A stretch of DNA of 24,558 bases from a virus: the IMG/VR virus record IMGVR_UViG_3300025326_000195, positions 1-24,558 of that record; one strand, given 5' to 3'. The position numbers were made by a program, and so were the translations under genes. This document shows, in pieces, positions 4,926 to 23,647 of the stretch (positions are counted from its first letter, which is position 1; each line of letters starts with the position of its first letter). Below the pieces are notes generated by a model, which was not told the DNA's origin, did no database searches, and saw only the letters and a list, made by a program, of their open reading frames with translations.

Positions 4926-4945
4926 TCACTGCTGGGTCCCCTCGA

Positions 4946-5316: not shown

Positions 5317-5364
5317 GTAAAAATACATTGTTTAACAAAATAATTCGTCTTTTTTTGATTCTTC

Positions 5365-5393: not shown

Positions 5394-5433
5394 ATATGGA
5401 CTAAACATCAGAAAAATCGTATAGTGTGAAAAG

Positions 5434-5473: not shown

Positions 5474-5475
5474 AT

Positions 5476-5514
5476 GAATTGCGGAATGATCCGAATTGCG
5501 GATTTCGGAATTGA
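5476..5514. repeat. Heptamer inverted-repeat element R1 (half element)
   Basis: GAATTGCGG, ATCCGAATTGCGG and ATTTCGGAATTGA words lie between the terminator and the portal ATG. Its complement reappears almost whole in R2 (7298-7350), so the portal gene is bracketed by inverted copies. There is no opposite arm beside it. Confidence 0.85.
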
Positions 5515-5523
5515 GTTTTCAAA

Positions 5524-7125
5524 ATGTCTTTCAATCTACAATTCCCCGAGAATTTAGCAATGAATCTAATCAATCCCCTTGTGGGTCCCATCATTGACCG
5601 ATTGTACGCATATCGTACCAAACTGCTACTCTTGAAACAAGCGCAAGAGGCGGAATTATTCTATGCCTTGCAACAGCGGGCAGAGAAGGCAGTGCAACTC
5701 GTCAATCTAAAAGCGAAAGTTGAGCCGCCTAAAATTGACGCCACACAAGAGGAATTGGAACAGAGTTACGGGGCGGGGGTATGGATTTATGCGGCGATCA
5801 ATGTCATTGCCGAAAAGTCTGCATCCATCCCCTGGAGGGTCGTTGACCGAAACAGGGAGGATATACCCTCTCCGTTGCCAATCCGTCCCAATCCCCTGAT
5901 GAGTTGGAATCACCTCCGCCAGTGTCTACAAATCTCATTGGACACGACGGGTAATGGGTTCATTTTCTGGGATAATGAGTCTAATCAGTTTTGGCTATTG
6001 CGAACCTCACGGGTACGGATTGTGCCGGGGCCCGACGGGCGATCAATTCTCGGCTATGCCTATAAAAGTGAGGCAGCGTTCAAGCCAGCGCAGACGGTTC
6101 AAGGACGGCTGTGGACCTTACGACAAGATGAGGCGATGTACATCTCTCGTAAGGAATTTGACGAGCATATTCACAAGACGAAGGCATGGTTGACGAGAGG
6201 AGATGTCAGTGAAAAAATGTCGATCGCGGGCGGAGAAGCGTGGCTACCGATTGAGCCAGAGAATATGATTCACGTCCGCTATGCTCACTCCTACAATAGC
6301 TGGTACGGCATGTCTCCGCTTCAACCCCTCCTGATCTCTTTCATCACCGAGATGCACGCCCGAAAGTGGAATCAACTCTTTTTTGAGAATGGCGCGTTGC
6401 CCCCTGGCGTATTGGTGTTCCCCGAAACCTTGCAACCCGCGCAATATAAAGCGATTTCCGAGCAGTTCAAAGAAAAGCATCAAGGCATTAAAAATGCGTG
6501 GATGCCGTTTATCGCGCAGGGCGGCGCAACCTTTACCCCATTCCCCAATCAGCACAAAGATTTAGACTTTTTGAACCTACTCCGCTGGACCCGCGATGAG
6601 ACCCTTGCCGTGCTAAATGTTCCGCCCGCGATGGTCATGGCGTTTGCTGGAATGGATGGCTCGACCCGCTCTCTGGGAATCGCCGAGCAACGCCAAATCT
6701 TCTGGAAAGATACTATCATTCCAAAAGAAGAAAATAAAGTTGAACAATTTACGATAGACCTTGAATCCCTGCTTGGCGCAGGAAATTCAATCATCATTGA
6801 CACCAGCACGATTGAAGAATTACAGCCGAACTGGACAGAGCTAGCAAAAGCGGGTAAGGATTTGATTATCTCTGGGATGTCAGTGCAAGAGGTGAGAGAG
6901 AAAGTTTACGGATTAACCGATCTCCCAAAAGACCCAATTTATTTGCCGATGGGACTTGCGCCAGTTGACCTGGCGAACCCCGTTTCGGTTCAATCCTATT
7001 ACCTCTACCAGCGACCTATGCAACCGATTGAAGCGGGCTATGCGTCTTACCCATACGCGCAACAGATAGCGAGCCATCGCAAAGAACTTCCGTCAGCCGA
7101 TGAAGCTGAAACGGAGGCAGACTGA
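5524..7125 (+). CDS. Portal protein (HK97-type)
   Basis: The dodecameric ring at the capsid vertex through which DNA enters and leaves. At 533 residues it has full portal size. Typical features: the N-terminal core segment YGAGVWIYAAINVIAEKSASIPWRV, the middle HVRYAHSYNSWYGMSPLQPLL, then FENGALPPGVLVFPE and the C-terminal ETLAVLNVPPAMVMAF with STRSLGIAEQRQIFWKDTI, all characteristic of HK97-family portals. A helical N-terminal extension of about 65 residues is probable coiled coil. The ATG has no visible Shine-Dalgarno; repeat R1 ends only 9 bases upstream. An in-frame ATG at residue 13 has none either. It overlaps the MuF-like gene by 26 bases. Confidence 0.93.
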   Translation: MSFNLQFPENLAMNLINPLVGPIIDRLYAYRTKLLLLKQAQEAELFYALQQRAEKAVQLVNLKAKVEPPKIDATQEELEQSYGAGVWIYAAINVIAEKSASIPWRVVDRNREDIPSPLPIRPNPLMSWNHLRQCLQISLDTTGNGFIFWDNESNQFWLLRTSRVRIVPGPDGRSILGYAYKSEAAFKPAQTVQGRLWTLRQDEAMYISRKEFDEHIHKTKAWLTRGDVSEKMSIAGGEAWLPIEPENMIHVRYAHSYNSWYGMSPLQPLLISFITEMHARKWNQLFFENGALPPGVLVFPETLQPAQYKAISEQFKEKHQGIKNAWMPFIAQGGATFTPFPNQHKDLDFLNLLRWTRDETLAVLNVPPAMVMAFAGMDGSTRSLGIAEQRQIFWKDTIIPKEENKVEQFTIDLESLLGAGNSIIIDTSTIEELQPNWTELAKAGKDLIISGMSVQEVREKVYGLTDLPKDPIYLPMGLAPVDLANPVSVQSYYLYQRPMQPIEAGYASYPYAQQIASHRKELPSADEAETEAD

Positions 7126-7990
7126 TCGGCTTCTTCTTTCAGAAAGACGCCTTCGAACGGCGCTGTGGGAGGTCGTTGATAAGCGGTTTACGAAGGTTGA
7201 GAACCGCTTGTTTGACTGGCTCGTTGGCTTATTCACAACACAAGAGGAACGGTACATTGACGCAATCAAAATCGAGTATGTAAAGACAACGAGCCAGTCA
7301 ATTCCGAAATCATCAATCCGAAATCCGCAATTCGGATCATTCCGCAATTCCCTAACGAAGGAACCCGTCGAAGTCTTAAATGGCATCAACAAACAGCAGG
7401 CGTTGGAATGGCATATCTGGAAAGACGCAGCCTTTCTTGAGTTTACGGAGTTGGTCGATGACGCTGGCAAGTTTGGACTCAAACGGGCAAAGATTCAAGG
7501 AGCATGGGATGTCTTAAATCCACAGGTGTTACTGTTCCTCGACGAAAAGGTTTTCAACTTCGCCAATGGCTTGACCGATTCGATTGGCGATGCGCTGCGT
7601 GAAACCCTGAGAGAAGCTATCCGAAACGGTGAATCCATTGAGCAGATGACCGAGCGGATTCAGAAAGTCTTTCAGGGGACGGTGCGCGGCGATGCCCCTC
7701 GAGCCCGCATAATCGCCAGAACCGAAGCGACGGGGATTGTGAATGGCGGGCAACGGTTGGCATATCAGCAGAATGCCGATATTGTGGAAGGAGTTGAATG
7801 GCTGTCAAGCAAGGATGCCCGCGTCCGACCTTCCCATCAGGCGGCCGACGGACAGCAGGTTCTACTCAATAAGCCATTTACGGTTGGGGGGGCGTTGCTC
7901 AGGTTTCCTGGTGACCCACAAGGGCCGGCGCGGGAAGTGGTGAATTGCCGTTGCACAATCCTAAGTATTTTGAAAAAGGTGTCATCGTGA
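7100..7990 (+). CDS. MuF-like head morphogenesis protein with in-frame repeat insertion
   Basis: The C-terminal half carries the MuF/SPP1 gp7 pattern: ARIIARTEATGIVNGGQRLA (about 200-222), WLSSKDARVRPSHQAADGQ and the closing REVVNCRCTI, a Cys/His set typical of the family. Such minor head proteins sit inside the capsid near the portal and are often encoded just after it, as here (26-base overlap). Residues 67-84 (IPKSSIRNPQFGSFRNS region) come from repeat R2, inserted in frame in a linker between the helical N-terminal part and the conserved domain. A copy of the 28-base repeat (7127-7154) encodes residues about 10-19. Confidence 0.88.
   Translation: MKLKRRQTDRLLLSERRLRTALWEVVDKRFTKVENRLFDWLVGLFTTQEERYIDAIKIEYVKTTSQSIPKSSIRNPQFGSFRNSLTKEPVEVLNGINKQQALEWHIWKDAAFLEFTELVDDAGKFGLKRAKIQGAWDVLNPQVLLFLDEKVFNFANGLTDSIGDALRETLREAIRNGESIEQMTERIQKVFQGTVRGDAPRARIIARTEATGIVNGGQRLAYQQNADIVEGVEWLSSKDARVRPSHQAADGQQVLLNKPFTVGGALLRFPGDPQGPAREVVNCRCTILSILKKVSS
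7127..7154 (-). repeat. 28-base repeat, copy a (inverted)
   Basis: Reads CGGCTTCTTCTTTC...GACGCCTTC on the + strand, the exact complement of the copy at 9257-9284. It begins one base after the portal stop codon and is coding in the MuF-like gene. Confidence 0.9.
7298..7350. repeat. Heptamer inverted-repeat element R2 (inside the MuF-like gene)
   Basis: Composed of CCGAAAT, CCGCAAT and related words, ending ATTCGGATCATTCCGCAATTC. Apart from an extra stretch of about 15 bases it is the complement of R1 (5476-5514). It contains no stop in the MuF frame and adds about 18 residues. Confidence 0.9.
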
Positions 7991-8088
7991 AAGATAACAA
8001 ACCCTCTCATAATCGTCCAATGCCAAAGCCGAAGCCCAAGCCGAAACCTAAGCCTCCCAAGAAAAAGGAGTCACATAATGCAAATTGA
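7987..8088 (+). CDS. Pro/Lys-repeat mini-protein (33 aa, GTG start)
   Basis: A short frame starting at a GTG that overlaps the previous TGA (GTGA overlap) encodes a peptide with an uninterrupted alternating Lys-Pro stretch (PMPKPKPKPKPKPPKKK). Its 3' end overlaps the start of the protease gene, and its last codons contain that gene's ribosome site (AAAAAGGAG). It may be a real coupled mini-gene or only a translated leader that feeds ribosomes to the protease start. Low complexity prevents any functional call. Confidence 0.4.
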   Translation: MKDNKPSHNRPMPKPKPKPKPKPPKKKESHNAN

Positions 8089-9727
8089 CGAAAAGACACG
8101 TAATCTCATCCGCTCCATGATTCTCGGTGGGATTCAGATTGAAGCGGCGGAACGGAATACTCTCATTGAGAAAGCCATTGAGCAGGGGTTCTACCGACGC
8201 AAGACCAGCCTGGCAATCAAATCCGTTGACCTCGACACCCATCGAATCGACTTCATTGTGACAACGGACACGGTAGACCGAGACGATGAGCGAGTGATGC
8301 CCAGATCTTTTGAAAAGGATTTCAAGTTATATCAGGAGAACCCTGTCGTTTTGTGGGCTCATAAGCACGATGTCCCAGCAGTGGCTCGGATGGTTGATTT
8401 CAAGTTTACCGACAAGGATTTCTCAGTCACCGATCAGTTCGCCGTTGACACCACGCCACTGGCGACTGAACTCTGGAAACTCTACTCCGCAGACCCCCCT
8501 TATATGCGAGCCGTGAGTGTAGGCTTTATCCCTGTCGATTGGACATTCGACGAAAAGGATAAACTGCCAGGTCAACAGGGACGGACATTTCTGGAGAATG
8601 AGATGATTGAGCACTCGCTTGTCAATGTCGGCTCTAACCGCTTTGCGCTTTCCAAAGCCTACCAAACCGAGAAAGACCCGACACTGAAAGCGGTGCTTGA
8701 GGCATTGATTGAGCAACCTTCAGCCCACCCATGCGGGCATCGGGTGCTATATGATGGGGATGGGAAGATTGTTGATTGCCCGCTCTGTGAGGGGGAATTA
8801 GGAAGAATTGCGGACGTCTCGATTGCGGATTTCGGATTGCGGATTTCGGAATTGAAGAATTTAAGAGACTCTTATCCTCTTCAATCTGCAATCCGCAATC
8901 CGCAATCTGCAATTCCCCAAGGGCTGATAAGCCAAGAGCGGATTGAAGTGACTGGCGAGAAGCCCTATCCTAATGAACACGCCTGCCGACTGCGCTCCCC
9001 TTCCGATTTTGAGAAGGATTCTTTTGTTCGCACCAAACGGCAACACGAAGGAAAAGGCTATTCAGTGATTATGGGTAAGTTAAAGGGTAAAACAACCTTG
9101 ACTCAACAGGCTTTCCGCTATCCGAAATCAGACTGGACAGCGAAAGCGGCGAAATCTCATTGTACCGATCACAAGGGGATTCTATTTGAGCCCGCTTCAA
9201 AGGATATGGAGGTGCTCACTCAAGCGGAGATAAAAGCCATAAATGAGAGCGACTCTGAAGGCGTCTTTCTGAAAGAAGAAGCCGAAAAGATGTACGGGCG
9301 GTTCACCATTCCCGGCACCTATGAGCGAACCCATCGGGACATCCATAAAGCTGTGGAAGATTACAAAAAAGAATTGATTGGACGTGAATGGCATTATATC
9401 GTCATCATCGGCACAACGGATACATGGGTTATCTGTTACGACGAAGATGCGGACGTATTCTATCAGCTTGACTGGATGCGTGATGCGAATGGCATGGTAG
9501 TATTCTCAAATCCCCGTCAAATCGAAATGACAATTGGGGATGAGGCGGTGCAACTGTCCATTGATGACGTAATTCCTAAAGCGGCTGTCATCATAGAAGA
9601 TGAACTGATTGCGTCAGTCAGAAATATCATGCGTGAAATCAATGCCATTGAGCCGATCGTAAGCCCACAAACGGAAGGAGACTTAGAGCAAAGGCTCTCA
9701 ACAATCATTCAGACTTTAACACATTAG
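8078..9727 (+). CDS. Prohead protease with C-terminal extension and in-frame repeat insertion
   Basis: The capsid maturation protease (HK97 gp4/U35 type). The first 200 residues hold the protease domain: VDRDDERVMPRSF, the catalytic His in VVLWAHKHDVP (H95) and Ser in MRAVSVGFIP (S147), then MIEHSLVNVGSN. A zinc-ribbon-like element follows (CGH 219-221, CPLC 234-237). Residues about 239-280 are repeat R3, inserted in frame. Beyond it lies a domain with PYPNEHACRLRSPSDF and GKLKGKTTLTQQAFRYPKSDW, which I recognise from other protease or head-gene fusions but cannot name. The C-terminus (about 375-549) is unassigned and includes residues encoded by the 28-base repeat. The start has AAAAAGGAG six bases upstream. 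Confidence 0.88.
   Translation: MQIDEKTRNLIRSMILGGIQIEAAERNTLIEKAIEQGFYRRKTSLAIKSVDLDTHRIDFIVTTDTVDRDDERVMPRSFEKDFKLYQENPVVLWAHKHDVPAVARMVDFKFTDKDFSVTDQFAVDTTPLATELWKLYSADPPYMRAVSVGFIPVDWTFDEKDKLPGQQGRTFLENEMIEHSLVNVGSNRFALSKAYQTEKDPTLKAVLEALIEQPSAHPCGHRVLYDGDGKIVDCPLCEGELGRIADVSIADFGLRISELKNLRDSYPLQSAIRNPQSAIPQGLISQERIEVTGEKPYPNEHACRLRSPSDFEKDSFVRTKRQHEGKGYSVIMGKLKGKTTLTQQAFRYPKSDWTAKAAKSHCTDHKGILFEPASKDMEVLTQAEIKAINESDSEGVFLKEEAEKMYGRFTIPGTYERTHRDIHKAVEDYKKELIGREWHYIVIIGTTDTWVICYDEDADVFYQLDWMRDANGMVVFSNPRQIEMTIGDEAVQLSIDDVIPKAAVIIEDELIASVRNIMREINAIEPIVSPQTEGDLEQRLSTIIQTLTH
8792..8918. repeat. Heptamer inverted-repeat element R3 (inside the protease gene)
   Basis: Left arm GGGGAATT plus ATTGCGG/ATTTCGG units to about 8855, a centre TTGAAGAA...CTCTTCAA, and right arm CCGCAAT/CTGCAAT units ending AATTCCCC. 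The arms are complementary, and the whole element is open in the protease frame (IADFGLRI... and SAIRNPQSAI). Confidence 0.92.
9257..9284 (+). repeat. 28-base repeat, copy b
   Basis: GAAGGCGTCTTTC...GAAGAAGCCG, exactly complementary to copy a and one base different from copy c. It encodes EGVFLKEEA in the C-terminal part of the protease. Confidence 0.9.
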
Positions 9728-9736
9728 GGAGGGGAA

Positions 9737-9820
9737 GGGGAATTGCGGAATTATGAAGAATTGCGGAATTCGGAATTGAAGATGTCTCTTCCAATCCGCA
9801 ATCCGCAATCCGAAATTCCT
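9737..9820. repeat. Heptamer inverted-repeat element R4 (before the capsid gene)
   Basis: GGGGAATTGCGG ... GGAATTGAAGATGTCTCTTCC ... CCGCAATCCGCAATCCGAAATTCC. The centre GAAGATGTCTCTTCC is the exact complement of that of R9, so the same element type occurs in both orientations. It is open upstream of the capsid start and can be mistaken for a capsid N-terminus. Confidence 0.92.
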
Positions 9821-9850
9821 TATGATGGTGGTCATCATAGGAGAGAAAAC

Positions 9851-11281
9851 ATGCCTCCAGCAGCAACAGTAATAACCGCGCCTGCCTATGTCACAGTTGA
9901 GCAATTCAAATCCGTTGAGCAAACTATACTTGAGCTTGCCAACGCGATGAAAATGCTTAATGGTACACTAAAGACGGTAGGCGAGCGACAGGAAGCGGCA
10001 GAAAAACAACTCGCCGATGCAACCCGAATTAACGAGGAAAAGAAATCACTGGCACGGAATATGCCGATCTTTGGCGTTGAGTCCGTACCGGGCGACTTCT
10101 TATTCAAAGAAATCACGGCGTCAACCCCGGCACCGATTGCGAAGGCGATCATAGAAAAGGTTATCGGCTCTCCGACTCAGGATGAGCGGATAAAGGAATT
10201 TCAGGAGAAGTCGGATACCATCAAGATTCTGTGCGGCTATCTCGGAAAGCAACCGCACGAATTAAAGATGTATAAAGAATATGAGGCCTGGTGCGAAAAG
10301 ACAGGGCTTGGGAAGGTTTTGTCTGTTATAGACTCCCCGGCGAACTTCATCGCTAACGGATGGTCAGCAGAAATAGCGACCTACTACCAGCAAGAATTGA
10401 TGATTGCCACCCTGTTTGGTGCACCTTTTGAGATGCCGAACGATCCCTTCCGATACGACTTTCTCGGAACAGGATTCACAAGCTATTTGCGCGGCGAACC
10501 GACAACCGATCCCGCCTCTAAATATCGTTCATCTCAACCCACCCAGGATGTCATTACGCTAACGACCAAAGAATTGGCCGGGCGGATGCTATTAACTCGG
10601 AAAATGACAGAGGACGCGCTTGCTGCGTATGTCCCTAAACTCCGAACCGAGTTGATTCCACGCGGTATGGCAGAGGGTATGGAAAATGGGCTTCTCAACG
10701 GAGATGATAGTGCGACTCATTTTGATACCGTTGTCACGGATGCCGACGACGTCCGCAAGGCATGGCCAGGGATTCGCAAAATCGCAGATCGGGAATCCGC
10801 AACGTATGATGTGCAAACTGGCAGTACGGCTTATGCCTATAACGACTTCGGGGAAGTCCTCTTAAAGGCCGGCAAATTTGGTGTAAAAGTCAATGAAGGC
10901 GCGTGGATTTCCAGCAACGTTGCCTACATCAAGTCAACGGTTTTCGATGAAGTCAAAACGGCAGAAAAAATCAGTTTGCCAACCAACATCAACGGCGTTG
11001 TGAATGTGTGGTTGGGCCGTCCTGTCATTGTTTCGCCACAGTATTCTGCGACACTTGCCGCTGCAACGGGCAAAGACGCGGGAACGGGTACTACCACCGG
11101 CTTCGCTTATGTCAATCATCGACAATTCATGATGGGATTCCGACGCGAAGACATCATCGAACAAGATCGAGACATCACGACGGGGATGGATACGATTGTT
11201 ATTTCAACCCGTAAAGCCTTCCAGCAGATGCTCCCCACGGGGAACACGACTTGCGCAACAGGCTTTAACGTGCCAACGTAG
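9851..11281 (+). CDS. Major capsid protein (HK97 fold)
   Basis: The main shell protein. The start is the ATG at 9851, with AGGAGAG before it; 36 in-frame codons upstream are repeat R4 and should not be included. The 476-residue protein begins with a short extension and a coiled coil (about 12-65: VEQFKSVEQTILELANAM, ERQEAAEKQLADATRINEE), the scaffolding delta domain normally removed by the protease. The fold proper follows, with GWSAEIATYYQQELMIATLFGAPFEMP, the E-loop-like TGFTSYLRGEPTTDP, the spine helix segment RMLLTRKMTEDALAAYVPKL and the late NGVVNVWLGRPVIVS...RQFMMGFRRE typical of these capsids. Confidence 0.93.
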   Translation: MPPAATVITAPAYVTVEQFKSVEQTILELANAMKMLNGTLKTVGERQEAAEKQLADATRINEEKKSLARNMPIFGVESVPGDFLFKEITASTPAPIAKAIIEKVIGSPTQDERIKEFQEKSDTIKILCGYLGKQPHELKMYKEYEAWCEKTGLGKVLSVIDSPANFIANGWSAEIATYYQQELMIATLFGAPFEMPNDPFRYDFLGTGFTSYLRGEPTTDPASKYRSSQPTQDVITLTTKELAGRMLLTRKMTEDALAAYVPKLRTELIPRGMAEGMENGLLNGDDSATHFDTVVTDADDVRKAWPGIRKIADRESATYDVQTGSTAYAYNDFGEVLLKAGKFGVKVNEGAWISSNVAYIKSTVFDEVKTAEKISLPTNINGVVNVWLGRPVIVSPQYSATLAAATGKDAGTGTTTGFAYVNHRQFMMGFRREDIIEQDRDITTGMDTIVISTRKAFQQMLPTGNTTCATGFNVPT

Positions 11282-11286
11282 GACGC

Positions 11287-11392
11287 TTGGGGAATTTCGG
11301 ATTAAAAAACATTTCGGATTTCGGAATTGAAGAACGTTTCTTCCAATCCGCAATCTGCAATCATCAATCCGCAATTCTTCATAATTCCCCAA
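11287..11392. repeat. Heptamer inverted-repeat element R5
   Basis: Bounded by TTGGGGAATT and AATTCCCCAA (perfect 10-base complement). Left arm ATTTCGG units, centre GAAGAACGTTTCTTCC, right arm CCGCAAT/CTGCAAT units. Lies between the capsid gene and the next gene's ribosome site. Confidence 0.92.
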
Positions 11393-11419
11393 CACTCATT
11401 AAAAAAGGAGGACACTTCA

Positions 11420-11875: not shown

Positions 11876-11885
11876 AGGAGGAAAA

Positions 11886-12019
11886 GAATTGCAGATTGCA
11901 GATTGCAGATTGCGGAACCTTGAAGAATTGCGGAATGCGGATTGCGGAATTTAATCCGAAATCCGAAATCCGAAATTCCCCAAGGTCCGAAATCCGCATT
12001 CCGCAATTCGGATCAATTC
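11886..12019. repeat. Heptamer inverted-repeat element R6, between a Shine-Dalgarno and its start codon
   Basis: Left arm with three ATTGCAG units, GCGGAACCTTGAAGAATTGCGG and AATGCGG; right arm CCGAAAT x3, CCCCAAGGTCC, CCGCATT, CCGCAATTCGG. The arms pair along most of the length, including AACCTTG with CAAGGT. AAAGGAG (11874-11880) lies just before it and the next ATG (12027) just after. Confidence 0.92.
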
Positions 12020-12026
12020 TTCTATC

Positions 12027-12755: not shown

Positions 12756-12758
12756 ATT

Positions 12759-13139: not shown

Positions 13140-13140
13140 C

Positions 13141-13168
13141 GAAGGCGTCTTGCTGAAAGAAGAAGCCG
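13141..13168 (+). repeat. 28-base repeat, copy c (intergenic)
   Basis: GAAGGCGTCTTGC...GAAGAAGCCG, 27 of 28 bases identical to the copy at 9257. It begins two bases after the previous stop and ends one base before the next ATG, so it is essentially the whole intergenic gap. Confidence 0.9.
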
Positions 13169-13169
13169 T

Positions 13170-14648: not shown

Positions 14649-14652
14649 AATT

Positions 14653-15111: not shown

Positions 15112-16147
15112 GCGAATCTTGATTGTTGGCGACATCATGCTCGATCAGTACCTTGAGGGAAAGATTGAGCGGATGTCACCAGAGGCACCCGTCCCCATAC
15201 TCGATGTGCACCAGATTCGCAATCAATTGGGTGGTGCGGCGAACGTCGCGGCGAATGTTGCGTCATTGGGAGCGCAGGCTTTTTTGATGGGGCATGTCGG
15301 CGAGGATATGCCGGGGCAAATCGTTAGGAATCTATTGACATTGCATCGGGTAGCCTTTATTCCCTTGTCCATCCCAGATCGCCAAACAACCCTCAAGACC
15401 CGCCTTGTCTCAGGGCATCAGCAGATGATTCGCTTCGATCAAGAGACAAAGACACAAATCCATGAAATTGAAAAAGCGATGGAATTGGCATTGCGGCGGT
15501 TGACCTTCAATGGCATTATCCTCTCGGATTATGACAAAGGGGTTTTGACACCCGATTCAATTGCATTCTTCCGAGAGATTGAGAAGAATTGCGGAATGCG
15601 GAATGCGGATTGCGGAATTATGAAGAATTGCGGATTGCAGATTGCGGATTGCGGAATTCAATCCGAAATCCGAAATCCGCAATTCCCCAAGGTCCGAAAT
15701 CATCAATCCGAAATCCGAAATTCTTCAAGCGATATTCCGATTGTCGTTGACCCCAAGCAACGAAACTTCTGGGAATATCAAGGTTTCACCGCAATTACTC
15801 CGAACCTATCAGAAGCATTGAAGGCAACAGAACAGACCGATCATCAATTGGCTTGCGAACAAATCCAGCGAATGCTCAATCCGAAACAGCTTCTCTTAAA
15901 GCGAGGGGAGCAGGGAATGGTATTGATGGAAGGGGAGCAGACCTACGAAATCCCTGCACACCGAGTCGAAGTCGCTGATGTAACTGGCGCAGGAGATACT
16001 GTGATTGCGACATACACGTTAGGGTTGTCATCAGGAATGACAGCATTAGAAGCAGCAAAACTAGCAAATCTAGCGGCATCCATTAGCGTACAACATCATG
16101 GTTGTTATCATATCAAGCCAGAGGACTTAAATGCTCATATTCTTTGA
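15062..16147 (+). CDS. rfaE1: PfkB-family heptose 7-phosphate kinase (RfaE1/HldA-like) with in-frame repeat insertion
   Basis: Resembles D-glycero-beta-D-manno-heptose-7-phosphate kinase, which phosphorylates heptose-7-phosphate at C1 on the way to ADP-heptose. Signs: LIVGDIMLDQYLEGKIERMSPEAPVPILDV (20-49), LGGAANVAANVASLGA (56-71), VVDPKQRNFWEYQGFTAITPN and the PfkB signature DVTGAGDT with catalytic Asp312. There is no adenylyltransferase domain, so it corresponds to the monofunctional kinase. Residues 175-223 are repeat R7; without them the length is about 312, normal for the family. The insertion lies between a helix and the IPIVVDPK strand, probably a surface loop. It overlaps both neighbours in a phage structural operon, so it is cargo rather than a stray host gene. 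The start could also be the ATG at 15068. Confidence 0.88.
   Translation: MEMRLSENKIGRLFRGKRILIVGDIMLDQYLEGKIERMSPEAPVPILDVHQIRNQLGGAANVAANVASLGAQAFLMGHVGEDMPGQIVRNLLTLHRVAFIPLSIPDRQTTLKTRLVSGHQQMIRFDQETKTQIHEIEKAMELALRRLTFNGIILSDYDKGVLTPDSIAFFREIEKNCGMRNADCGIMKNCGLQIADCGIQSEIRNPQFPKVRNHQSEIRNSSSDIPIVVDPKQRNFWEYQGFTAITPNLSEALKATEQTDHQLACEQIQRMLNPKQLLLKRGEQGMVLMEGEQTYEIPAHRVEVADVTGAGDTVIATYTLGLSSGMTALEAAKLANLAASISVQHHGCYHIKPEDLNAHIL
15584..15729. repeat. Heptamer inverted-repeat element R7 (inside the kinase gene)
   Basis: One of the longest copies. Left arm AAGAATTGCGG, AATGCGG x2, ATTGCGG, a second AAGAATTGCGG block and ATTGCAG units; centre GGAATTCAATCC; right arm CCGAAAT/CCGCAAT units, CCCCAAGGTCC, and an outer AATCCGAAATTCTTCAAG. 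Open in the kinase frame (MRNADCG ... SEIRNPQF). Confidence 0.92.
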
Positions 16148-17761: not shown

Positions 17762-18231
17762 CCGAACAAGAATTAGCAAACCACATAACCACAGACCCCG
17801 ACACGATTGGGTTATCATGGCTCAAAACAGACAAAGAAATCTATGTACTTCTGCACGATAAGACACTTGGCATCTATGTGCCCATTGCCACGCCCAAGTA
17901 TCGTGTGCTTCAATGGACAGGTGGGAACGGATTGTTAGATCGATTAAACACCAATCAGACGGCGCATATTGATTCTACGATTCGGTCAATCTGCCGTGCC
18001 GGGATACTAATGTTTCAGGATGGCACTATCTCTGAAATTAACTTCAATGAGCCAGAGAATCAAGCACTACTTGATGCTCTTATTGCTGGAGGCGTCATGA
18101 CAGCGGACGAGAAAACAGACTTGATGAATAATCTTGCTCGTCATGCGGCGAGTACCCTTGAGAAGGCATTTGGGATTGGGGCGGAAACCACTTACGGGAT
18201 GATTGAACGAGCGCGGAAGGTAGGTGTGTGA
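17758..18231 (+). CDS. Phage protein of unknown function (157 aa)
   Basis: ATGA overlap with the previous gene. The first half is mixed alpha/beta (DTIGLSWLKTDKEIYVLLHD). The second half has ENQALLDALIAGGVMTADEKTDLMNNLARHAAS followed by AFGIGAETTYGMIERARKV, a helical C-terminal pattern I have seen in a recurrent family of phage proteins next to neck or tail genes (from memory). It is probably a structural or assembly protein. No catalytic motif. Confidence 0.75.
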   Translation: MTEQELANHITTDPDTIGLSWLKTDKEIYVLLHDKTLGIYVPIATPKYRVLQWTGGNGLLDRLNTNQTAHIDSTIRSICRAGILMFQDGTISEINFNEPENQALLDALIAGGVMTADEKTDLMNNLARHAASTLEKAFGIGAETTYGMIERARKVGV

Positions 18232-18794
18232 TGCCAAACGAAGTCTTACAAAAGGTTGGAACTCAGCTTGTTTTTGCTGACCATGCAGGTGACTTCGGCC
18301 CGGTAGCAGCAAATGATTTGCGGCAAGGAACGCCAACAACAGTACAAGCGGCGGTAGCATCATTGGCCGATGGTGCCGCGTGGCAAAGTGCTAAGTTTGA
18401 TTTCGGTGCAACTCGTGCAGCACAATTCTCACTCACCGCCGCGATTGAGTTCGCTGCAACACCTACAGCTGGTGACACCGTTCAGATCTATTTGGCACCA
18501 TCTTCTGATAGTGTTGCCGCAAATAGTAACCCAGGCGGAGTCTCTGGTAGTTCGTCTGCTTACGCGGGTTATTCCTCAAATCTTGCCGCAAGCGTTGCGC
18601 AATTGCAACAAATCGGAATCTTTATTTGCACGGCGCAAATCACAGGGACTGTGCAAATTGCATTCGTCTCAATCTTTTCTGCCCCCGAGCGCTACGGGAC
18701 ACTCATCATAAAAAATGAATCGAACGCTGCATTTCATTCAGATGATGTAGAGACCCACTTCGTGATAACCCCCATCATTGATGAGGTTCAATAA
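18231..18794 (+). CDS. Phage structural protein, beta-rich (187 aa)
   Basis: The ATG at 18231 overlaps the previous stop (TGATG); a GTG one codon earlier is unnecessary. The sequence ADHAGDFGPVAANDLRQGTP ... WQSAKFDFGATRAAQFSL ... AAIEFAATPTAGDTVQIYLAPS ... PERYGTLIIKNESNAAFHSDDVETHF follows a pattern I recall from virion proteins in siphoviruses of diverse hosts. Few charges and Ala/Ser-rich, as in fibre-associated or decoration proteins. The gene ends one base before the next ATG, so it is probably co-translated with the LamG fibre. Confidence 0.75.
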   Translation: MPNEVLQKVGTQLVFADHAGDFGPVAANDLRQGTPTTVQAAVASLADGAAWQSAKFDFGATRAAQFSLTAAIEFAATPTAGDTVQIYLAPSSDSVAANSNPGGVSGSSSAYAGYSSNLAASVAQLQQIGIFICTAQITGTVQIAFVSIFSAPERYGTLIIKNESNAAFHSDDVETHFVITPIIDEVQ

Positions 18795-18795
18795 A

Positions 18796-20463
18796 ATGAG
18801 ACGAACCCTAAAGCCCTCGGTCGGTGAGTTATCAGATGGTCGGTGGCGCGTGGATTCCGTCTGGCGTGGCTTGGTTGGGGCATGGTTCTTTCTGGAAGGT
18901 GGGGGGCAGGTCGCTCATGATTATTCGGGGCAAGGCCATCACGGAACGCTGACGGGCATGGCCTCTCCGCCGAGTCCCACGTCTGGGTGGAATGTGGGGC
19001 AATTTGGACATGCTCTAGCTTATGATGGAATTAATGATTATGTGTCAATCCCAGATACCCCAATTCTAAATCCTGCTCAAATTACCATTGCGGCGAGTCT
19101 TGTGCCGACTGATGTAACCTCAAACACAGTACTGTTAAAGCCAAAATCAACCCATACCAGCCCCTTTTATCAATATGGTTTTAGGTTTGGTTCTGGTGCA
19201 ACGCTGTCTTTTAACTACAGCGTTGGCTCAACGTTAGCGGCGGCGACTACGACTGCAACATATAGCGCTGGACAGAGACTGCACATCGTGGGTACTTACG
19301 ATGGAGTCACTGGAAAAATATATGTAAATGGCATTTTGCAAGCAACTAGCACTGCGGTATCGGGGAATCTGAATATTTATGCGACTGCTCTTAATATTGG
19401 GCGGAGCGCGAATGTGGGCGAATATGCCACGGGCAAAATGGACGGCGTGTTACTATACAATCGTGCGTTGATGGACTCTGAAGTTAAACAACTCTACGTT
19501 AATTTCTTCCCAGATGTTCGGCGTCGGGTGTATTTTGTACCGACGACAGGCATAACAACAAAAATCTTTACTGAGTCGGTTGGGTTATCGAAAGCATTGA
19601 TCCATCAACCAACCCAGATTTATACTGAGTCAATTGGGTTGGCAGAATCTTCTCTTGCCAAACTGATTCAAGCATTCTTAGAATCATTAGGGCTGACTGA
19701 ATCTCGGGCTTTACTCGCTTCAATGGTTCGCTCGGAGTCAACGGGATTATCCGAGTCTCACGTCAGAATATCGACCGAGATTTTTGCTGAGTCAGTTGGG
19801 TTGGCAGAATCTTCTCTTGCCAAATTGATTCAAGCATTCTTAGAATCATTCGGGGTGACTGAATCTCAGATGTTATTAGCTTCAATGGTACGCTTGGAGT
19901 CGGTGGGATTATCCGAGTCTCAAGTTAGACAGCCGACCCAGATTTATGAGGAGTCAATCGGATTAGCGGAATCGTCTCTTGCCAAATTGATTCAAGCATT
20001 CTTAGAATCATTAGGGTTGACTGAATCAAGGGCTTTGTTGGCTTCAATGGTTCGTTCGGAGTCGGTGGGATTATCTGAGGCTAATGTCAGAATGCCGACC
20101 GAGATTTTTGCTGAGTCGGTTGGGTTGGCCGAGTCATTCACAAAAGCACTTTTAGTGATTCAGGCATTCCTTGAATCATTGGATTTGATTGAATCTGAAA
20201 CCCGAATGGTGGTAGTGACTCACGATGAAGCGATGTTATTACAAGAGTCCTTCACAAAAACAGTCACGCAAATTTTACTTGAGCATTTGGGGTTATCAGA
20301 AGCCGCAACTTTTGGACAAGTTATCGTCACGGCAATCCTAATCCCTGTTTTCGTGGAACTGTTAGCGCAACGATTCTTTGATACCCTTATCGAATCCGAG
20401 TCATTTCTTGATATTTCAACTGAGTCTGCTAAAATGGTTGAGGTGAATATAGATAATGGCTAA
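18796..20463 (+). CDS. LamG fibre protein with 18-residue tandem repeats
   Basis: The true start is the ATG at 18796, one base after the previous stop. 555 residues: a LamG/concanavalin-like domain (about 25-235: LVGAWFFLEGGGQVAHDYSG, LAYDGINDYVSIPD, LHIVGTYDGVTGKIYVNG, MDGVLLYNRALMDSEVKQLY), a short linker VRRRVYFVPTTG, then from residue 260 about 13 units of 18 residues with the consensus ES.GL.ES followed by 10 mostly hydrophobic positions. The units group into a 54-residue higher-order repeat. Such repeats probably form an extended trimeric shaft; LamG would bind a host glycan. The last 8 bases overlap the next gene. Confidence 0.85.
   Translation: MRRTLKPSVGELSDGRWRVDSVWRGLVGAWFFLEGGGQVAHDYSGQGHHGTLTGMASPPSPTSGWNVGQFGHALAYDGINDYVSIPDTPILNPAQITIAASLVPTDVTSNTVLLKPKSTHTSPFYQYGFRFGSGATLSFNYSVGSTLAAATTTATYSAGQRLHIVGTYDGVTGKIYVNGILQATSTAVSGNLNIYATALNIGRSANVGEYATGKMDGVLLYNRALMDSEVKQLYVNFFPDVRRRVYFVPTTGITTKIFTESVGLSKALIHQPTQIYTESIGLAESSLAKLIQAFLESLGLTESRALLASMVRSESTGLSESHVRISTEIFAESVGLAESSLAKLIQAFLESFGVTESQMLLASMVRLESVGLSESQVRQPTQIYEESIGLAESSLAKLIQAFLESLGLTESRALLASMVRSESVGLSEANVRMPTEIFAESVGLAESFTKALLVIQAFLESLDLIESETRMVVVTHDEAMLLQESFTKTVTQILLEHLGLSEAATFGQVIVTAILIPVFVELLAQRFFDTLIESESFLDISTESAKMVEVNIDNG
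19573..20290 (+). repeat. 162-base tandem repeat in the fibre gene
   Basis: The motif GAGTC(A/G)..TGGGTT recurs at 19627, 19789, 19951 and 20113, exactly 162 bases apart, giving three full copies plus diverging edges. Each copy contains three 54-base sub-units. The words for SSLAKLIQAFLES are nearly identical between copies at DNA level, showing recent expansion. Confidence 0.92.
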
Positions 20464-20734
20464 AGAGGCATCAGGGCTTACAGAGGTATTAGTTCGGCGA
20501 ATTCAAACCGATAGCGGCATAACTGAACTCAGGAATGATGCACGGTTTCAGCTAAATAAGCGAATCACACAGGCATGGGATATGCTCTTAAAAGAGATGG
20601 AAGAATTGCGGATTTCGGATTGCGGAATTAAAATCCGAAATCATCAATCCGAAATCCGCAATTCCCTTATGCTCTTAAAAGAGATGGAAAAAAGGAGGGT
20701 TGAAAATGGAGCTTCACGGAATCCTGATTCGTAG
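20456..20734 (+). CDS. Small fibre-associated protein interrupted in frame by repeat R8
   Basis: 92 residues, ATG overlapping the end of the fibre gene. The native part is MAKEASGLTEVLVRRIQTDS...RITQAWDMLLKEMEK...; residues about 50-78 come from R8 plus a duplicated MLLKEME. Without the insertion (87 bases) the protein would be 63 residues, so the element kept the frame. The beginning, ASGLTEVLVRRIQ, resembles the ES.GL.ES fibre repeat. Its 3' end overlaps the next gene. Function unknown; perhaps a fibre tip or chaperone peptide. Confidence 0.65.
   Translation: MAKEASGLTEVLVRRIQTDSGITELRNDARFQLNKRITQAWDMLLKEMEELRISDCGIKIRNHQSEIRNSLMLLKEMEKRRVENGASRNPDS
20581..20689. mobile_element. Repeat R8 with 22-base target-site duplication
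   Basis: The core 20603-20667 (GAATTGCGGATTTCGGATT...GAAATCCGCAATTCCCT) is an inverted heptamer repeat. It is flanked by exact 22-base direct repeats at 20581-20602 and 20668-20689 (TATGCTCTTA...GATGGAA). Removing the core and one flank restores a continuous reading frame (QAWDMLLKEMEKRR). Confidence 0.9.
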
Positions 20735-21152
20735 GGTCACGATGAACGATGGAAAGATTGTTGAATTTGCACCCGCTCATAATACCATCGTCAATGTAGG
20801 GCGGTATCATGTCGCCGATTTGATTGGAAAGAAGTCAAGCAGGGGATTCACACACCTTGCAATGGGGACCAACAGAACAGGTGCAACCCCCGCCAACTCT
20901 GCGCTAGTGAGTGAATTGACAACGGGCGGGCTATCGAGGGCGGCGGCTACCATCACCAGAACCCTCACAACCGTCCAATTCGTTAAAACATTCACACTGA
21001 CGACGGCAAAGAGCATTATGGAATACGGCATCTTTAACTCACAGACGGTTGCTGTTGGCACCATGATGTCACGGATTACACAAGTGACGCTTACGCTGGC
21101 AAATGCAAACAAGATTCAACTGGACTGGAGCATTGGCGTTCGGAGGGTGTAA
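20706..21152 (+). CDS. Phage tail-fibre-like structural protein (148 aa)
   Basis: The ATG at 20706 follows AAAGGAGGG with good spacing; a TTG six bases earlier is less likely. The pattern HNTIVNVGRYHVADLIG ... FTHLAMGTNRTGATPANSALVSEL ... GLSRAAATITRT ... IMEYGIFNS ... GTMMSRITQ ... LDWSIGVRRV is one I associate with small virion or tail-tip proteins widespread in phages. The stop codon lies in the 16-base segment that is duplicated around R9. Exact position in the virion unknown. Confidence 0.75.
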   Translation: MELHGILIRRVTMNDGKIVEFAPAHNTIVNVGRYHVADLIGKKSSRGFTHLAMGTNRTGATPANSALVSELTTGGLSRAAATITRTLTTVQFVKTFTLTTAKSIMEYGIFNSQTVAVGTMMSRITQVTLTLANANKIQLDWSIGVRRV

Positions 21153-21347
21153 CTGGGAAGAGATTGCGGACCTTGGGGAATTAGGAAGAATTGCGGATTT
21201 GGGATTGCGGAATGCGGATTGGAAGAGACATCTTCAATTCCGAAATCCGAAATTCGGATCATTCCGAAATTCTTCGCGTCCGAAATCCTCAATTCTTCGC
21301 GTCCGAAATCCGCAATCTGCAATTCTTCAAAGTTCGGAGGGTGTAAC
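21138..21347. mobile_element. Repeat R9 with 16-base target-site duplication
   Basis: The insert 21154-21331 contains ATTGCGG units, CCTTGGGGAATT, the centre GGAAGAGACATCTTC and CCGAAAT/CCGCAAT units ending ATTCTTCAAA. It is flanked by the exact direct repeat GTTCGGAGGGTGTAAC at 21138-21153 and 21332-21347. That segment holds the upstream stop codon and the downstream Shine-Dalgarno, so both genes remain intact. Confidence 0.9.
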
Positions 21348-21349
21348 CG

Positions 21350-21667
21350 ATGATAACCTATACAGCGGGTGAACCCGTCTTGAGTTTAGTAACACTCAAG
21401 TCGCGAACCACAAGCAATCCATTCACGGCCGCAACCCTCTTTAATCCCGCAGTTGCTGCTAAGATGACCATCAAATTCAGGGAAGATAAATCGGTCAAAG
21501 TGAATGCCGTTTCGATGTCAAGCGTGAGTAAGGGAAAATACTACCACATCTACCAGACGCTTGCGACGACGCAGCCAGGACTTTATGATCGGCATATTCT
21601 CGTCGATGACACCACCTATGACACCGTAGGAGAAAACAGCTTTGAGATTCTCAAGCCGTTAGTTTAG
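21350..21667 (+). CDS. Small beta-rich structural protein (105 aa)
   Basis: Ribosome site GGAGG (right copy of the R9 duplication) before the ATG. Sequence pattern VLSLVTLKSRTTSNPF..ATLFNPAVAAKMTIKFRED..., then SKGKYYHIYQTLATTQPGLYDRHILVDDTTYDTVGENSFEIL, reads like one Ig-like beta-sandwich of the kind found in phage head-tail or tail proteins. No more specific assignment. The last base of its stop codon is the first base of hairpin H1. Confidence 0.7.
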   Translation: MITYTAGEPVLSLVTLKSRTTSNPFTAATLFNPAVAAKMTIKFREDKSVKVNAVSMSSVSKGKYYHIYQTLATTQPGLYDRHILVDDTTYDTVGENSFEILKPLV

Positions 21668-21692
21668 TTGTCTTTTAGAAACCTAAGACAAC
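21667..21692. other. Small hairpin H1, related to H2
   Basis: Stem GTTGTCTT (21667-21674) / AAGACAAC (21685-21692) around TTAGAAACCT. Read on the minus strand it is GTTGTCTTAGGTTTCTAAAAGACAAC in pieces, matching H2 in the inner sequence, with paired changes in the outer stem. It sits 6 bases before an ATG that has no Shine-Dalgarno. Confidence 0.7.
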
Positions 21693-21698
21693 GTTATC

Positions 21699-22046
21699 AT
21701 GCCAGTTACCATTAAAGACAATACAACTTTTGTCATCTTAGAGACCCGCCAAGAGGTCGAGCAATTCATTCGCCGCAAAGCCCTTGAGATTGTCAACGAG
21801 GCGAAGCGGTCGATGGTGGGCGGCGGAAAGCCCCATGTACCGAGTGCGCCAGGTGAGCCTCCGCATGTGGATACAGGGCGGTTGCGCTCATCAATTAGTT
21901 TTGAGTTTGAATCCTCGACATCGCAATTTGAGGCACGGGTAGGGACCAATGTCACCTATGGACGGGATTTAGAATTAGGGACCGAACGAATCAAGCCCCG
22001 CCCTTGGTTGCGACCTGCCTTCTTTAAGGTGCTTGGAGGGGCTTAA
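21699..22046 (+). CDS. HK97 gp10-like tail-completion / neck protein
   Basis: 115 residues. An N-terminal helix VEQFIRRKALEIVNEAKRSM is followed by the diagnostic PSAPGEPPHVDTGRLRSSISF and VTYGRDLELGTERIKPRPWLRPAF, the typical core of gp10-type tail components at the head-tail interface. No Shine-Dalgarno precedes the ATG; hairpin H1 lies directly upstream. The next gene's ribosome site (GGAGGGG) overlaps its end. Confidence 0.88.
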   Translation: MPVTIKDNTTFVILETRQEVEQFIRRKALEIVNEAKRSMVGGGKPHVPSAPGEPPHVDTGRLRSSISFEFESSTSQFEARVGTNVTYGRDLELGTERIKPRPWLRPAFFKVLGGA

Positions 22047-22047
22047 A

Positions 22048-22455
22048 GTGATCAACCAAAATGATGTGGCGAGGAAACTCCGATCGAAGCTGATTGCCAA
22101 CAGTACGATTGTCTCGTTGACGCAAGGGGTTTACTTCGCCAATGCTCCCCAGAACCAGGCCTATCCGTACATTTCATTCTTTCCTGTGTCGGGCGTGCCG
22201 ATTCAGCTTCAGCAGGGGAGTGGTATCTTAAATATGCACGCATGGCAGATTGACATCTGGGGACAGTCGGCATTGACGGTAAATCAGATTCACACGCAGA
22301 TTGCGACAACGCTGGATAACAATGCGCTTGGATTGGGTTCGTTATCCGAGATTGCGTTGCGTCGGTCAAGTATTCTTCCACTGATGATTGAAGCAACCGA
22401 GCAGGGCGGAAATGTATTTCATCAGCCTTTGGAGTATGTGGTTTATAGCAGATGA
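22048..22455 (+). CDS. Tail terminator / tail completion protein (DUF3168-like)
   Basis: The most likely start is the GTG at 22048, with GGAGGGG about 7 bases upstream; an in-frame TTG at 22033 would overlap the previous gene. 135 residues: VARKLRSKLIANSTIVSLTQGVYFANAPQNQAYPYISFFPVSG is the family hallmark (short helix, then the PYI.F strand), followed by HAWQIDIWG and a helix. These proteins cap the tail tube at the head-proximal end. The gene lies between gp10-like and tail tube, the standard order. Confidence 0.85.
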   Translation: MINQNDVARKLRSKLIANSTIVSLTQGVYFANAPQNQAYPYISFFPVSGVPIQLQQGSGILNMHAWQIDIWGQSALTVNQIHTQIATTLDNNALGLGSLSEIALRRSSILPLMIEATEQGGNVFHQPLEYVVYSR

Positions 22456-22528
22456 GAAGAATTGCGGATTTCGGATTGATGATTTCGGATTTTAATTCCG
22501 CAATCCGCAATCTGCATTCCGCAATTCC
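22456..22528. repeat. Heptamer inverted-repeat element R10
   Basis: Starts right after the tail-terminator stop. Its first 54 bases (22456-22509) are identical to 22620-22673 in R11, including the central part, so the two are recent local duplicates. Confidence 0.92.
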
Positions 22529-22619
22529 TCATGAAGTGTAGCAGGCAGGGGGACGGGGATCGACCACCACTCCGAAGCCTTTTACCGTACATTCCCTCAC
22601 GGTGCCTGCTACTGAATGG
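22529..22619. other. Segment trapped between R10 and R11, with a 10-base inverted repeat
   Basis: This 91-base stretch contains GTAGCAGGCA (22538-22547) and its exact complement (22603-22612), enclosing a G/C-rich loop. One + strand frame reads TTTPKPFTVHSLTVPATEW without a start codon, which looks like a fragment of a virion protein. A 10-base stem at this spacing can occur by chance a few times in a window of this size, so the structure alone proves nothing. Confidence 0.45.
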
Positions 22620-22696
22620 GAAGAATTGCGGATTTCGGATTGATGATTTCGGATTTTAATTCCGCAATCCGCATTCCGCATTCCGCAATTCTTCAA
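22620..22696. repeat. Heptamer inverted-repeat element R11
   Basis: Near-duplicate of R10; right arm CCGCAATCCGCATTCCGCATTCCGCAATTCTTCAA. It ends just before the ribosome site of the tail tube gene (AAAAGGAG). Confidence 0.92.
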
Positions 22697-22722
22697 GAGG
22701 AGGGGAAAAGGAGTAATACATC

Positions 22723-23130
22723 ATGGCAGTACAGCACGGAAAATCGGGCGGTATGTATAAAACGACGAGCGGAAATACCGCAACCCGCGTAATCGAAAGT
22801 ACCAGTTGGACACTGAACATAACCGCAGGGGAAGCAGAAATCCGCAAACATGCTTCCAATTGGGTGTCACGACTTCAGGGGATTTTAGATTGGACGGGAA
22901 CGATGGAAGGATTAAGCGATCCATCGTCGAACCAGACGCTATTTATGAATCGAGTCTTATCGGTGACGAAGCCAACTGTTGTGATTGCCTTTTATCACGG
23001 TACGGCAACCCTTCCGCGTTGGCAGGGAACGGCTTTGGTGAGAGGGCTTACACAAGCCGCCCCGGCGGCAGATATTGAGACGATGACGATTGACTTTGCT
23101 GGCGTAAACACGTTAGCACTCAAGGCATGA
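22723..23130 (+). CDS. Major tail (tube) protein
   Basis: 135 residues with AAAAGGAG upstream of the ATG. The layout MAVQHGKSGGMYKTT ... ESTSWTLNITAGEAEIRKHASNWVSRLQGILDWTGTMEGLSD ... and the repeated WQGTALVRGLTQAAPAADIETMTIDFAG is that of siphovirus tail tube proteins (tail-tube beta-barrel with W.G...G signatures). It polymerises as stacked hexamers around the tape measure. The next gene overlaps by ATGA. Confidence 0.82.
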   Translation: MAVQHGKSGGMYKTTSGNTATRVIESTSWTLNITAGEAEIRKHASNWVSRLQGILDWTGTMEGLSDPSSNQTLFMNRVLSVTKPTVVIAFYHGTATLPRWQGTALVRGLTQAAPAADIETMTIDFAGVNTLALKA

Positions 23131-23474
23131 TTCAACAAGGCGATGCAGGCATTATTCGGAATCTGGAAAGTACGCAAGCATTGGGGGGCTTCTTTCGCTG
23201 GCGATTAGCTTCGGCTCCAAAGACGCATGGTGAAGTTAATCAGACATTTGAAGCCGAAATGTACTGGTTGAATGTCCCCATAGAGAGTCAGCCCGTGCGC
23301 GTTCACCTTTTCGGGGTTTCCGCGCCTCAGAAGATTGGGTGCATCATAGCCCATGCGCAGCTTGATGGGCTTGATGTTATACCTGATGAGTTGATAATAA
23401 CCCCGCTGCGAGGTCAACTGGTGGAGATAATAGGATATGACCCCGACGCGGTAAGAGACGAAATCCATTTGTGA
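23127..23474 (+). CDS. Hypothetical tail-region protein (115 aa)
   Basis: ATGA overlap with the tail tube gene. Mixed alpha/beta protein with FRWRLASAPKTHGEVNQTFEAEMYWL and ending LRGQLVEIIGYDPDAVRDEIHL. No family recognised. Its position between the tail tube and the assembly chaperones suggests a tail assembly role. Hairpin H2 follows its stop after 5 bases. Confidence 0.7.
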   Translation: MIQQGDAGIIRNLESTQALGGFFRWRLASAPKTHGEVNQTFEAEMYWLNVPIESQPVRVHLFGVSAPQKIGCIIAHAQLDGLDVIPDELIITPLRGQLVEIIGYDPDAVRDEIHL

Positions 23475-23479
23475 CAAAC

Positions 23480-23503
23480 GCCGTCTTAGGTTCTAAAGAC
23501 GGC
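23480..23503. other. Small hairpin H2, related to H1
   Basis: Stem GCCGTCTT (23480-23487) / AAGACGGC (23496-23503), inner AG/CT pair and a GTT loop with one bulged A. Same inner sequence as H1 (in the opposite orientation), with CC/GG in place of TT/AA in the outer stem. No T run follows, so it is not a terminator. Confidence 0.7.
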
Positions 23504-23516
23504 AAGGAGGGAATAG

Positions 23517-23644
23517 ATAGATCACGCGAGAAGAATTGCGGATTGCGGATTTCGGATTTCGGAATTGAAGAACACTTCTTCCAATCCGAAATCCGAAATG
23601 TTTTTTAATCCGAAATTCTTCAAGGTCCGTGATCTATTTTTTTT
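23517..23644. repeat. Heptamer inverted-repeat element R12 with outer stem and T run
   Basis: ATTGCGG/ATTTCGG left arm, centre GAAGAACACTTCTTCC, CCGAAAT right arm. It is extended by a perfect 10-base outer stem, ATAGATCACG (23517-23526) / CGTGATCTAT (23628-23637), followed by eight T (23637-23644). AAGGAGG (23504-23510) precedes it; the chaperone ATG (23648) follows it. Confidence 0.9.
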
Positions 23645-23647
23645 ACC

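Follow-up and report, generated by a model that had tools for sequence, protein, structure and literature searches.

Several kinds of short repeats dispersed in bacterial genomes resemble the one reported here. Repetitive extragenic palindromic (REP) sequences, together with the bacterial interspersed mosaic elements (BIMEs), are short intergenic hairpins of 20–40 bp which occur in many copies (PMC12306157, PMC3733652). Rickettsia palindromic elements are about 150 bp long and are found in frame in unrelated genes, and miniature inverted-repeat transposable elements (MITEs) are small, non-autonomous and provided with inverted ends (PMC10969869). TAACTGA repeats, known from Beggiatoaceae and from some Bacteroidetes and Cyanobacteria, are direct repeats lying mostly upstream of start codons, and in the forward orientation they carry stop codons in all frames (PMC4679880). 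We have analysed a palindromic repeat made of 7-bp words, hereafter the heptamer element, in a phage genome of the IMG/VR virus record IMGVR_UViG_3300025326_000195, the whole 24,558 bases of which are called the window and in which terminase, portal, MuF-like, protease-like, connector and tail genes are present. Heptamer arrays in intergenic DNA are also found in cyanobacteria as the short tandemly repeated repetitive (STRR) heptanucleotide repeats, the words of which differ.

We read the heptamer element, with a probability of roughly 0.55, as a family of interspersed elements, short, non-autonomous and able to form hairpins, which are REP-like and Rickettsia-palindrome-like, settle at the 3′ ends of genes and probably spread in a structure-driven manner. 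With REPs it shares the short many-copy hairpin, and part of both sets lies close behind stop codons. It differs from them in its 7-bp words, in the length of its full copies (about 65–180 bp against 20–40 bp), in the absence of the GTAG/CGTC tag, in its occurrence in a phage operon and inside genes, and in a number unrelated to that of Y1 transposases. An earlier, sequence-only reading of the window had held that the element was not a simple REP; this stands for its sequence and ends, whereas its site right after stop codons is REP-like. The palindrome, a similar size and in-frame insertion, the last seen in four of the twelve copies of the window and in one on L012, a further contig of the same phage, are held in common with Rickettsia palindromic elements, but these are reported from Rickettsia, and the description consulted mentions no heptamer arrays, whereas the heptamer element occurs in a phage and in many phyla. 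The likeness to TAACTGA repeats consists of tandem 7-bp words, a mostly intergenic position, siting at gene boundaries and a patchy distribution over distant phyla; the heptamer element, in contrast, has inverted arms and other words, lies behind stops, and its main words are stop-free. It is small, non-autonomous and bounded by inverted ends like a MITE, yet no target duplication of constant length was found, and no parent insertion sequence is known for it, no search with its ends having been made. Its behaviour most resembles that of REPs and Rickettsia palindromic elements, its build that of TAACTGA-type heptamer arrays, and no family definition covers it fully. A search of the literature by word spellings, peptide spellings and repeat terms, which extended mainly to titles and to journals other than subscription journals, gave no description of it.

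The twelve copies counted in the sequence-only reading were all recovered at its coordinates, between 5.4 and 23.7 kb of the window. Their vocabulary consists of ATTGCGG, ATTTCGG, AATGCGG, ATTGCAG and relatives. The double-heptamer pattern AWTKCRGAWTKCRG matches the window 50 times and all 50 matches fall within the twelve copies, where shuffles would lead us to expect 0.04; no further cluster with at least three of seven searched words was found in the window outside them. In a full copy, tandem heptamers (A-T/A-T-G/T-C-G/A-G) make up two arms which are inverted relative to each other and enclose a centre; an apical stem may be present or missing, and the inverted ends seen are GAAGAATT/AATTCTTC and GGGGAATT/AATTCCCC. 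Hairpin folding of 11 of the 12 copies beat that of shuffles, with z scores of −3.3 to −7.6, the fold of copy 2 being computed on an intact version from the sister contig L053 and not on the window's own sequence; the short copy at 5476 did not fold above shuffles (z −1.1). Rfam gave no match in the window at the gathering score. Stop codons are absent from every frame of the main words, and the rarer ATTGATG has one. This freedom from stops was considered as a sign of selection and rejected, since about one heptamer in two, when repeated, lacks stops in all six frames and the property therefore proves nothing on selection.

The copies are dispersed over one operon, and some of them stand in frame within its genes. 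Copy 2 (7298..7350, − strand), with a damaged left arm, lies in the MuF-like head gene 7100–7990; copy 3 (8792..8925, +; z −6.0) in the protease-like 549-aa gene 8078–9727; copy 7 (15584..15730, +; z −6.5), which looks nested, in a PfkB/HldE-type kinase gene at 15062–16147; and copy 8 (20603..20667, +; z −7.3) in the open reading frame (ORF) 20456–20734. All four retain the open frame, the check for copy 2 being made on the translated L053 form plus the window's ORF. So does a 13th copy, found near the N-terminus of an ORF (11617–12492) which we take to be queC, on L012 where this contig extends beyond the window. In the kinase, copy 7 amounts to about 48 extra residues, 61 residues (165–225) standing opposite 13 in 4e84, and the Pfam match is broken in two at this copy. 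The kinase is a heptose kinase by type and is placed among phage structural genes; distant homologues of it were found in 15 records, of cyanophages and of other phages. Direct duplications flank two of the 13 phage copies and are of unequal length. Copy 8 is flanked by the 22-bp TATGCTCTTAAAAGAGATGGAA (20581..20602, +, and 20668–20689) with a period of 87 bp, a multiple of 3, and copy 9 (21154..21331, −; z −5.8) by the 16-bp GTTCGGAGGGTGTAAC (21138..21153, +, and 21332–21347) with a period of 194 bp, in a junction. When flanks were shuffled among 59 elements, no more than 9 bp were ever shared, whereas 16 bp or more were shared at 20 of 2000 places drawn at random from the window, which we attribute to internal tandem repeats of the latter. 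Inverted flanks beyond the null were seen in just 2 of the 59 elements, so insertion into pre-existing hairpins was not found as a rule.

By our own gene list, on which the following figures rest, the remaining eight of the twelve copies lie in the about 2.5% of the sequence that is intergenic (P = 7e-11), and the 6 of 23 gene junctions which contain copies are 123–267 bp long, against −50 to 87 bp for the other 17. Copy 1 (5476..5516, no strand assigned; z −1.1) is a short half-element, 34 nt of which recur in opposite orientation in the full form of copy 2; it is flanked by a terminator-like hairpin with a T run, seen by eye at 5435–5473, and by the start of the portal gene (5524). Copy 4 (9737..9820, +; z −3.3) is found between the stop at 9727 and the start at 9851, copy 5 (11287..11395, +; z −3.8) between the stop at 11281 and the start at 11420, and copy 9, which is nested-looking, between the stop at 21152 and the start at 21350. 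Copy 6 (11886..12020, +; z −6.7), nested-looking as well, parts the Shine-Dalgarno-like AAAGGAGG (11874–11881) from the next ATG (12027), and its predicted fold would rejoin them. In copies 6, 7 and 9 it looks as if one element had come to lie inside another. Copy 10 (22456..22530, −; z −6.1) starts immediately 3′ of the stop codon 22453–22455, and the near-identical copy 11 (22620..22695, −; z −7.6) follows it across a separate hairpin, GTAGCAGGCA/TGCCTGCTAC, at 22538–22612. The loop that contains copy 12 (23517..23644, +; z −6.5) is closed by a terminator-like stem, ATAGATCACG/CGTGATCTAT (23517–23526 and 23628–23637), which forms a 10-bp inverted flank and is followed by a T run. The copies are placed in otherwise unrelated phage sequence, and their dispersal and their insertion in frame are regarded as shown. 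As part of the favoured reading, and with the same slightly better than even confidence as the whole, we take them to have been inserted after the operon genes existed. Copies would enter the compact operon and would persist where they are least harmful, either between genes or, with the frame kept, within proteins.

The same phage is present on two further contigs, L053 (window 1711–15620) and L012 (window 15693–24281), the names of which both carry the sample number 3300002460. Copies 1–6 and 8–12 are at matching places in these contigs, copy 2 differs, and apart from copy 2 L053 is identical to the window over 1711–15620. The full version of copy 2 (L053 5582–5695; z −6.1) is in frame too. 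In the window its left arm has been replaced by 14 bp which are the inverse of 7212–7225, a net change of 48 bp with the frame kept. From the sequences compared, the change looks like template switching at the hairpin, an assembly or amplification chimera being the alternative. The end point of both sister contigs falls in the interior of copy 7 (L053 runs to 15620 and L012 starts from 15693), so that both edges of this copy are confirmed while its middle (15621–15692) comes from the window alone. As to the window and L012, 55 of their 56 differences lie from 23695 on (23695–24281) and the remaining one is an N at 21015; the 8 kb before 23695 are identical, and a recombination edge near this position is possible.

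The phage copies are related to one another over long exact stretches in both orientations. The longest in the same orientation, 54 nt, is shared by the neighbouring copies 10 and 11, and the longest in opposite orientation, 49 nt, by copy 8 with copies 10 and 11. Complementary centres had been pointed out for the copies at 9737 (R4) and 21154 (R9), and these were confirmed over 32 nt in opposite orientation. A common centre, GGAATT...AATC(C/T)G, was found in 11 of the 13 copies, seven on the + and four on the − strand; the loose pattern used matches copies 4, 6, 7 and 10 twice, the second time with 21–30 nt between the halves, and the short form was taken. The apical GAAGA...TCTTC stem is absent from 5 of these 11 copies. 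In copies 5 and 12 the centre has the same orientation, yet the left arm of one equals the inverted right arm of the other over 34 nt, as if parts had been exchanged through the hairpin. The sequence-only reading had further claimed that complementarity is kept while word number and order vary. At the level of words this did not hold: with arms aligned at the outer ends, paired words were identical in 54 of 123 cases against 54.5 ± 3.1 for shuffled order, and with arms aligned at the inner ends in 48 of 123 against 53.2 ± 3.0, in a test comprising 35 elements, five rows of which come from the window and in which some right arms were used twice. The arms pair because both draw on a few similar words differing at one or two positions. 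Its proposal of a dispersed, non-autonomous element other than a CRISPR, on the other hand, is borne out by the shared sequence, the occurrence in both orientations, the position inside unrelated genes and two direct duplications.

Related elements are widespread in bacteria and very unevenly abundant. The 18-mer of ATTKCGGATTKCGGATTKCGG was found in at least 120 stretches of GTDB genomes from many phyla, although single matches mean little, because several chance matches are expected in a collection this large; of two single-match genomes checked, G031 had no 21-mer pattern and G030 one match. In 50 chosen genomes, a biased sample reached through pattern matches and in which matches overlap within arrays, the 21-mer pattern was present in 48 and the reversed control in none. 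At least 10 matches were counted in 32 of these, one without phylum label and the others in 11 groups, namely Acidobacteria, Deltaproteobacteria, Planctomycetes, Verrucomicrobia, Nitrospirae, Bacteroidetes, Omnitrophota, Latescibacterota, Methylomirabilota, Hydrogenedentota and Gemmatimonadetes. The carriers are nearly all metagenome-assembled genomes, mostly of uncultured bacteria. An even draw from the phylum of the acidobacterium G005 gave the pattern in 19 of 199 genomes (two known before) and the control in 3, and one from the phylum of G030 gave the pattern in 1 of 198 (a single match, in G030 itself) and the control in 1. The reversed control, GGCKTTAGGCKTTAGGCKTTA, occurs 25 times in G178 of the former phylum and perhaps represents a different heptamer family. 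Within one genus, G005 has 1,792 pattern matches against 34, 10 and 10 in its congeners, a difference of about 50- to 180-fold, and in a syntenic stretch the G005 arms at L241 8118–8241 and 9476 are missing from G051. The inverted-arm plan of the phage recurs in many bacterial copies. Among G005 arms, compared with a view to a common loop sequence, inner flanks were similar in 24 of 61 and outer flanks in 4 of 61, the inner stretches often running into the opposite arm. Palindromic repeats of another type, GCGGAATGGTATTCCGC/GCGAAATACCATTTCGC, were seen at L241 2596–2681 of this acidobacterium, and at L119 580–740 a further palindrome, made of TCACCACGGAGACACGGAG and its inverse (19 bp), has a heptamer element in its loop.

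The arms prefer the immediate vicinity of stop codons. They were read in the ATT(G/T)CGG direction, and the distance from the stop of an open frame was taken. For frames of at least 100 codons, the arm start lay between overlap with the stop and 12 nt after it for 25/57 arms in G005, 27/81 at other GTDB loci and 41/117 at IMG/VR loci, compared with 2.5–3.5% of random positions. For frames of at least 150 codons, the interval from −3 to 12 nt held 23/59, 22/75 and 38/115 arms, respectively (random 1.7–2.0%), and that from 13 to 25 nt held 0/59, 5/75 and 0/115 (random 1.3–1.8%); pooled outside the window, these are 83/249 and 5/249. Little or no excess was found at start codons outside G005 (9/81 and 15/117; random about 11%) and some excess within it (10/57 against 8% random). 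Contact with stops on both sides is possible between convergent genes, where 5 of 38 hairpins were classed. In the window itself, inspection by eye placed the first word 14, 12, 12, 10 and 5 nt past the stop in five of the eight intergenic copies. Ribosome stalling is reported for those REPs of E. coli that are no farther than 15 nt from a stop; an earlier study proposed that 260 of 496 act in translation, and in a larger set just 446 of 4,072 are that close (PMC12306157). A REP-like role at stops is therefore plausible here, and the RNA hairpin behind the stop would probably act on the terminating ribosome or on the mRNA 3′ end.

Relatives were sought in viruses too. The pattern ATTKCGGATTKCGGATTKCGG matches 105 stretches of viral contigs. 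Within viral contigs, two phage spellings were confined to the pair of sister contigs, records very close to the window being possibly excluded, and a third was found in the sister contigs plus two others. Searches of viral contigs with the portal, terminase, capsid and a tail-region protein returned, apart from the sister contigs, only two relatives of the terminase, at 51–52% identity, and eleven other window proteins had no match on the two short stretches carrying the latter. Distant relatives of the terminase are numerous among named phages; for the portal there are 11, all below 30% identity, and for the capsid none. Copy 7 as a DNA query found no match in the phage and plasmid collections. 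The phage-type spelling occurred once or twice in 8 of 47 chosen genomes and twice in a single one of 301 genomes from the phylum of G031. A phage 25-mer with at most two mismatches was found in 14 of 395 genomes from the phylum of G035, with 1–3 matches each; all 19 listed places are at two mismatches and 7 have the plain word ATTGCGG. No host was identified by these searches. The view that the element is shared with the host genome is upheld in so far as related elements abound in some bacterial genomes, whereas sharing with the phage's own host is unsupported, the phage-type spelling being near-absent from the genomes searched.

Several results weigh against the favoured reading. No phage relative with empty sites was found in the protein searches of viral contigs. 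Of 225 loci, 22 had features of phage type in centre or ends, never more than one or two together; given that they are so sparse and that the exact phage centre occurs in no viral contig other than the sister contigs, common descent of phage and bacterial elements is a guess. Not one of 49 elements outside the window has a direct duplication above the null. On a strict count, for which an arm needs three perfect words, 0 of 6 window arms lie at a stop codon, and the stop-codon test uses crude ORF calls, random places not matched for intergenic position, and loci chosen by pattern, several of them from the same genomes. The enzymes counted were Y1 transposases and reverse transcriptases, the latter present in 25 of 53 carrier genomes; element number was unrelated to either (rho 0.04 and 0.10, respectively, n = 53), and no mobilising enzyme was found and no transposition seen. 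A full-length relative carrying a transposase or reverse transcriptase was not seen either, no systematic search having been made.

These counts also bear on the rival explanation that a MITE-like or REP-like element is moved in trans by a hairpin-recognising host transposase (RAYT/Y1 HUH or DDE), the phage having been seeded in its host. The inverted ends, the two direct duplications and the occurrence in both orientations would agree with it, as would the presence of Y1 transposases in nearly all carriers (50/53). We nevertheless regard it as doubtful, as the duplications are unequal (22 and 16 bp) and 11 of 13 copies have none, the lack of relation between Y1 and element numbers extends to G005, which is no richer in Y1 transposases (10) than its congeners (10, 11 and 13), and no GTAG/CGTC (or CTAC/GACG) tag was found in the terminal 14 nt of the 24 ends of the twelve window copies. 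Structure-driven copying is preferred, with modest confidence, over a classical transposase because duplications are rare and unequal, the ends are inconstant, arm parts seem to have been exchanged, the patch in copy 2 is templated, and the Y1 and reverse transcriptase counts are unrelated to element number. Template switching, or an enzyme acting in trans, might copy a cruciform or looped-out single strand to other places, and phages might serve as carriers. A bolder form of the favoured reading, in which one selfish lineage crosses phyla, rides phages, copies itself via the folded strand without a known transposase and lodges by translation stops, is offered as a tentative proposal.

Strong folds and the sharp placement at stop codons would suit fixed functional RNA hairpins as well, that is, 3′-end stabilisers or termination or attenuation devices kept by selection and slowly multiplied by duplication and gene conversion. 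We judge this unlikely in view of in-frame copies in five genes, the about 50- to 180-fold range of copy number in one genus and arms unmatched word for word. Moreover, only one of the twelve copies (copy 1) overlaps a terminator-like call in an intrinsic-terminator scan, which allows loops of 3–8 only and for which the loop of copy 12 is too long. Growth of chance heptamers in situ by replication slippage and fold-back, separately at each site, is very improbable, for although word numbers vary and copy 2 has a templated inverted patch, independent growth yields no such centre and side sequences as the copies have in common over up to 49–54 nt in both orientations, by which it is largely refuted for the phage copies; it might account for single arms in bacteria.

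Two other repeats of the window were noted. Between early genes, at 3925–4015, a palindromic repeat was seen by eye whose words, of GCGAATCT/GCAAATTCGC type, differ from those of the heptamer element, and the lectin-domain gene 18778–20463 has an internal repeat of about 162 bp at 19606–20196.

The heptamer element brings together three topics which we know as separate, namely REP-like hairpins behind stop codons, in-frame palindromic inserts of the Rickettsia kind and the arrays of heptamers in uncultured bacteria. With its dozen interrelated copies, the phage offers a small and tractable case for studying the mode of spread, and genera with 50-fold differences in copy number invite a search for the mobiliser. 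Moreover, in-frame copies put spurious repeats into proteins predicted from metagenomes.

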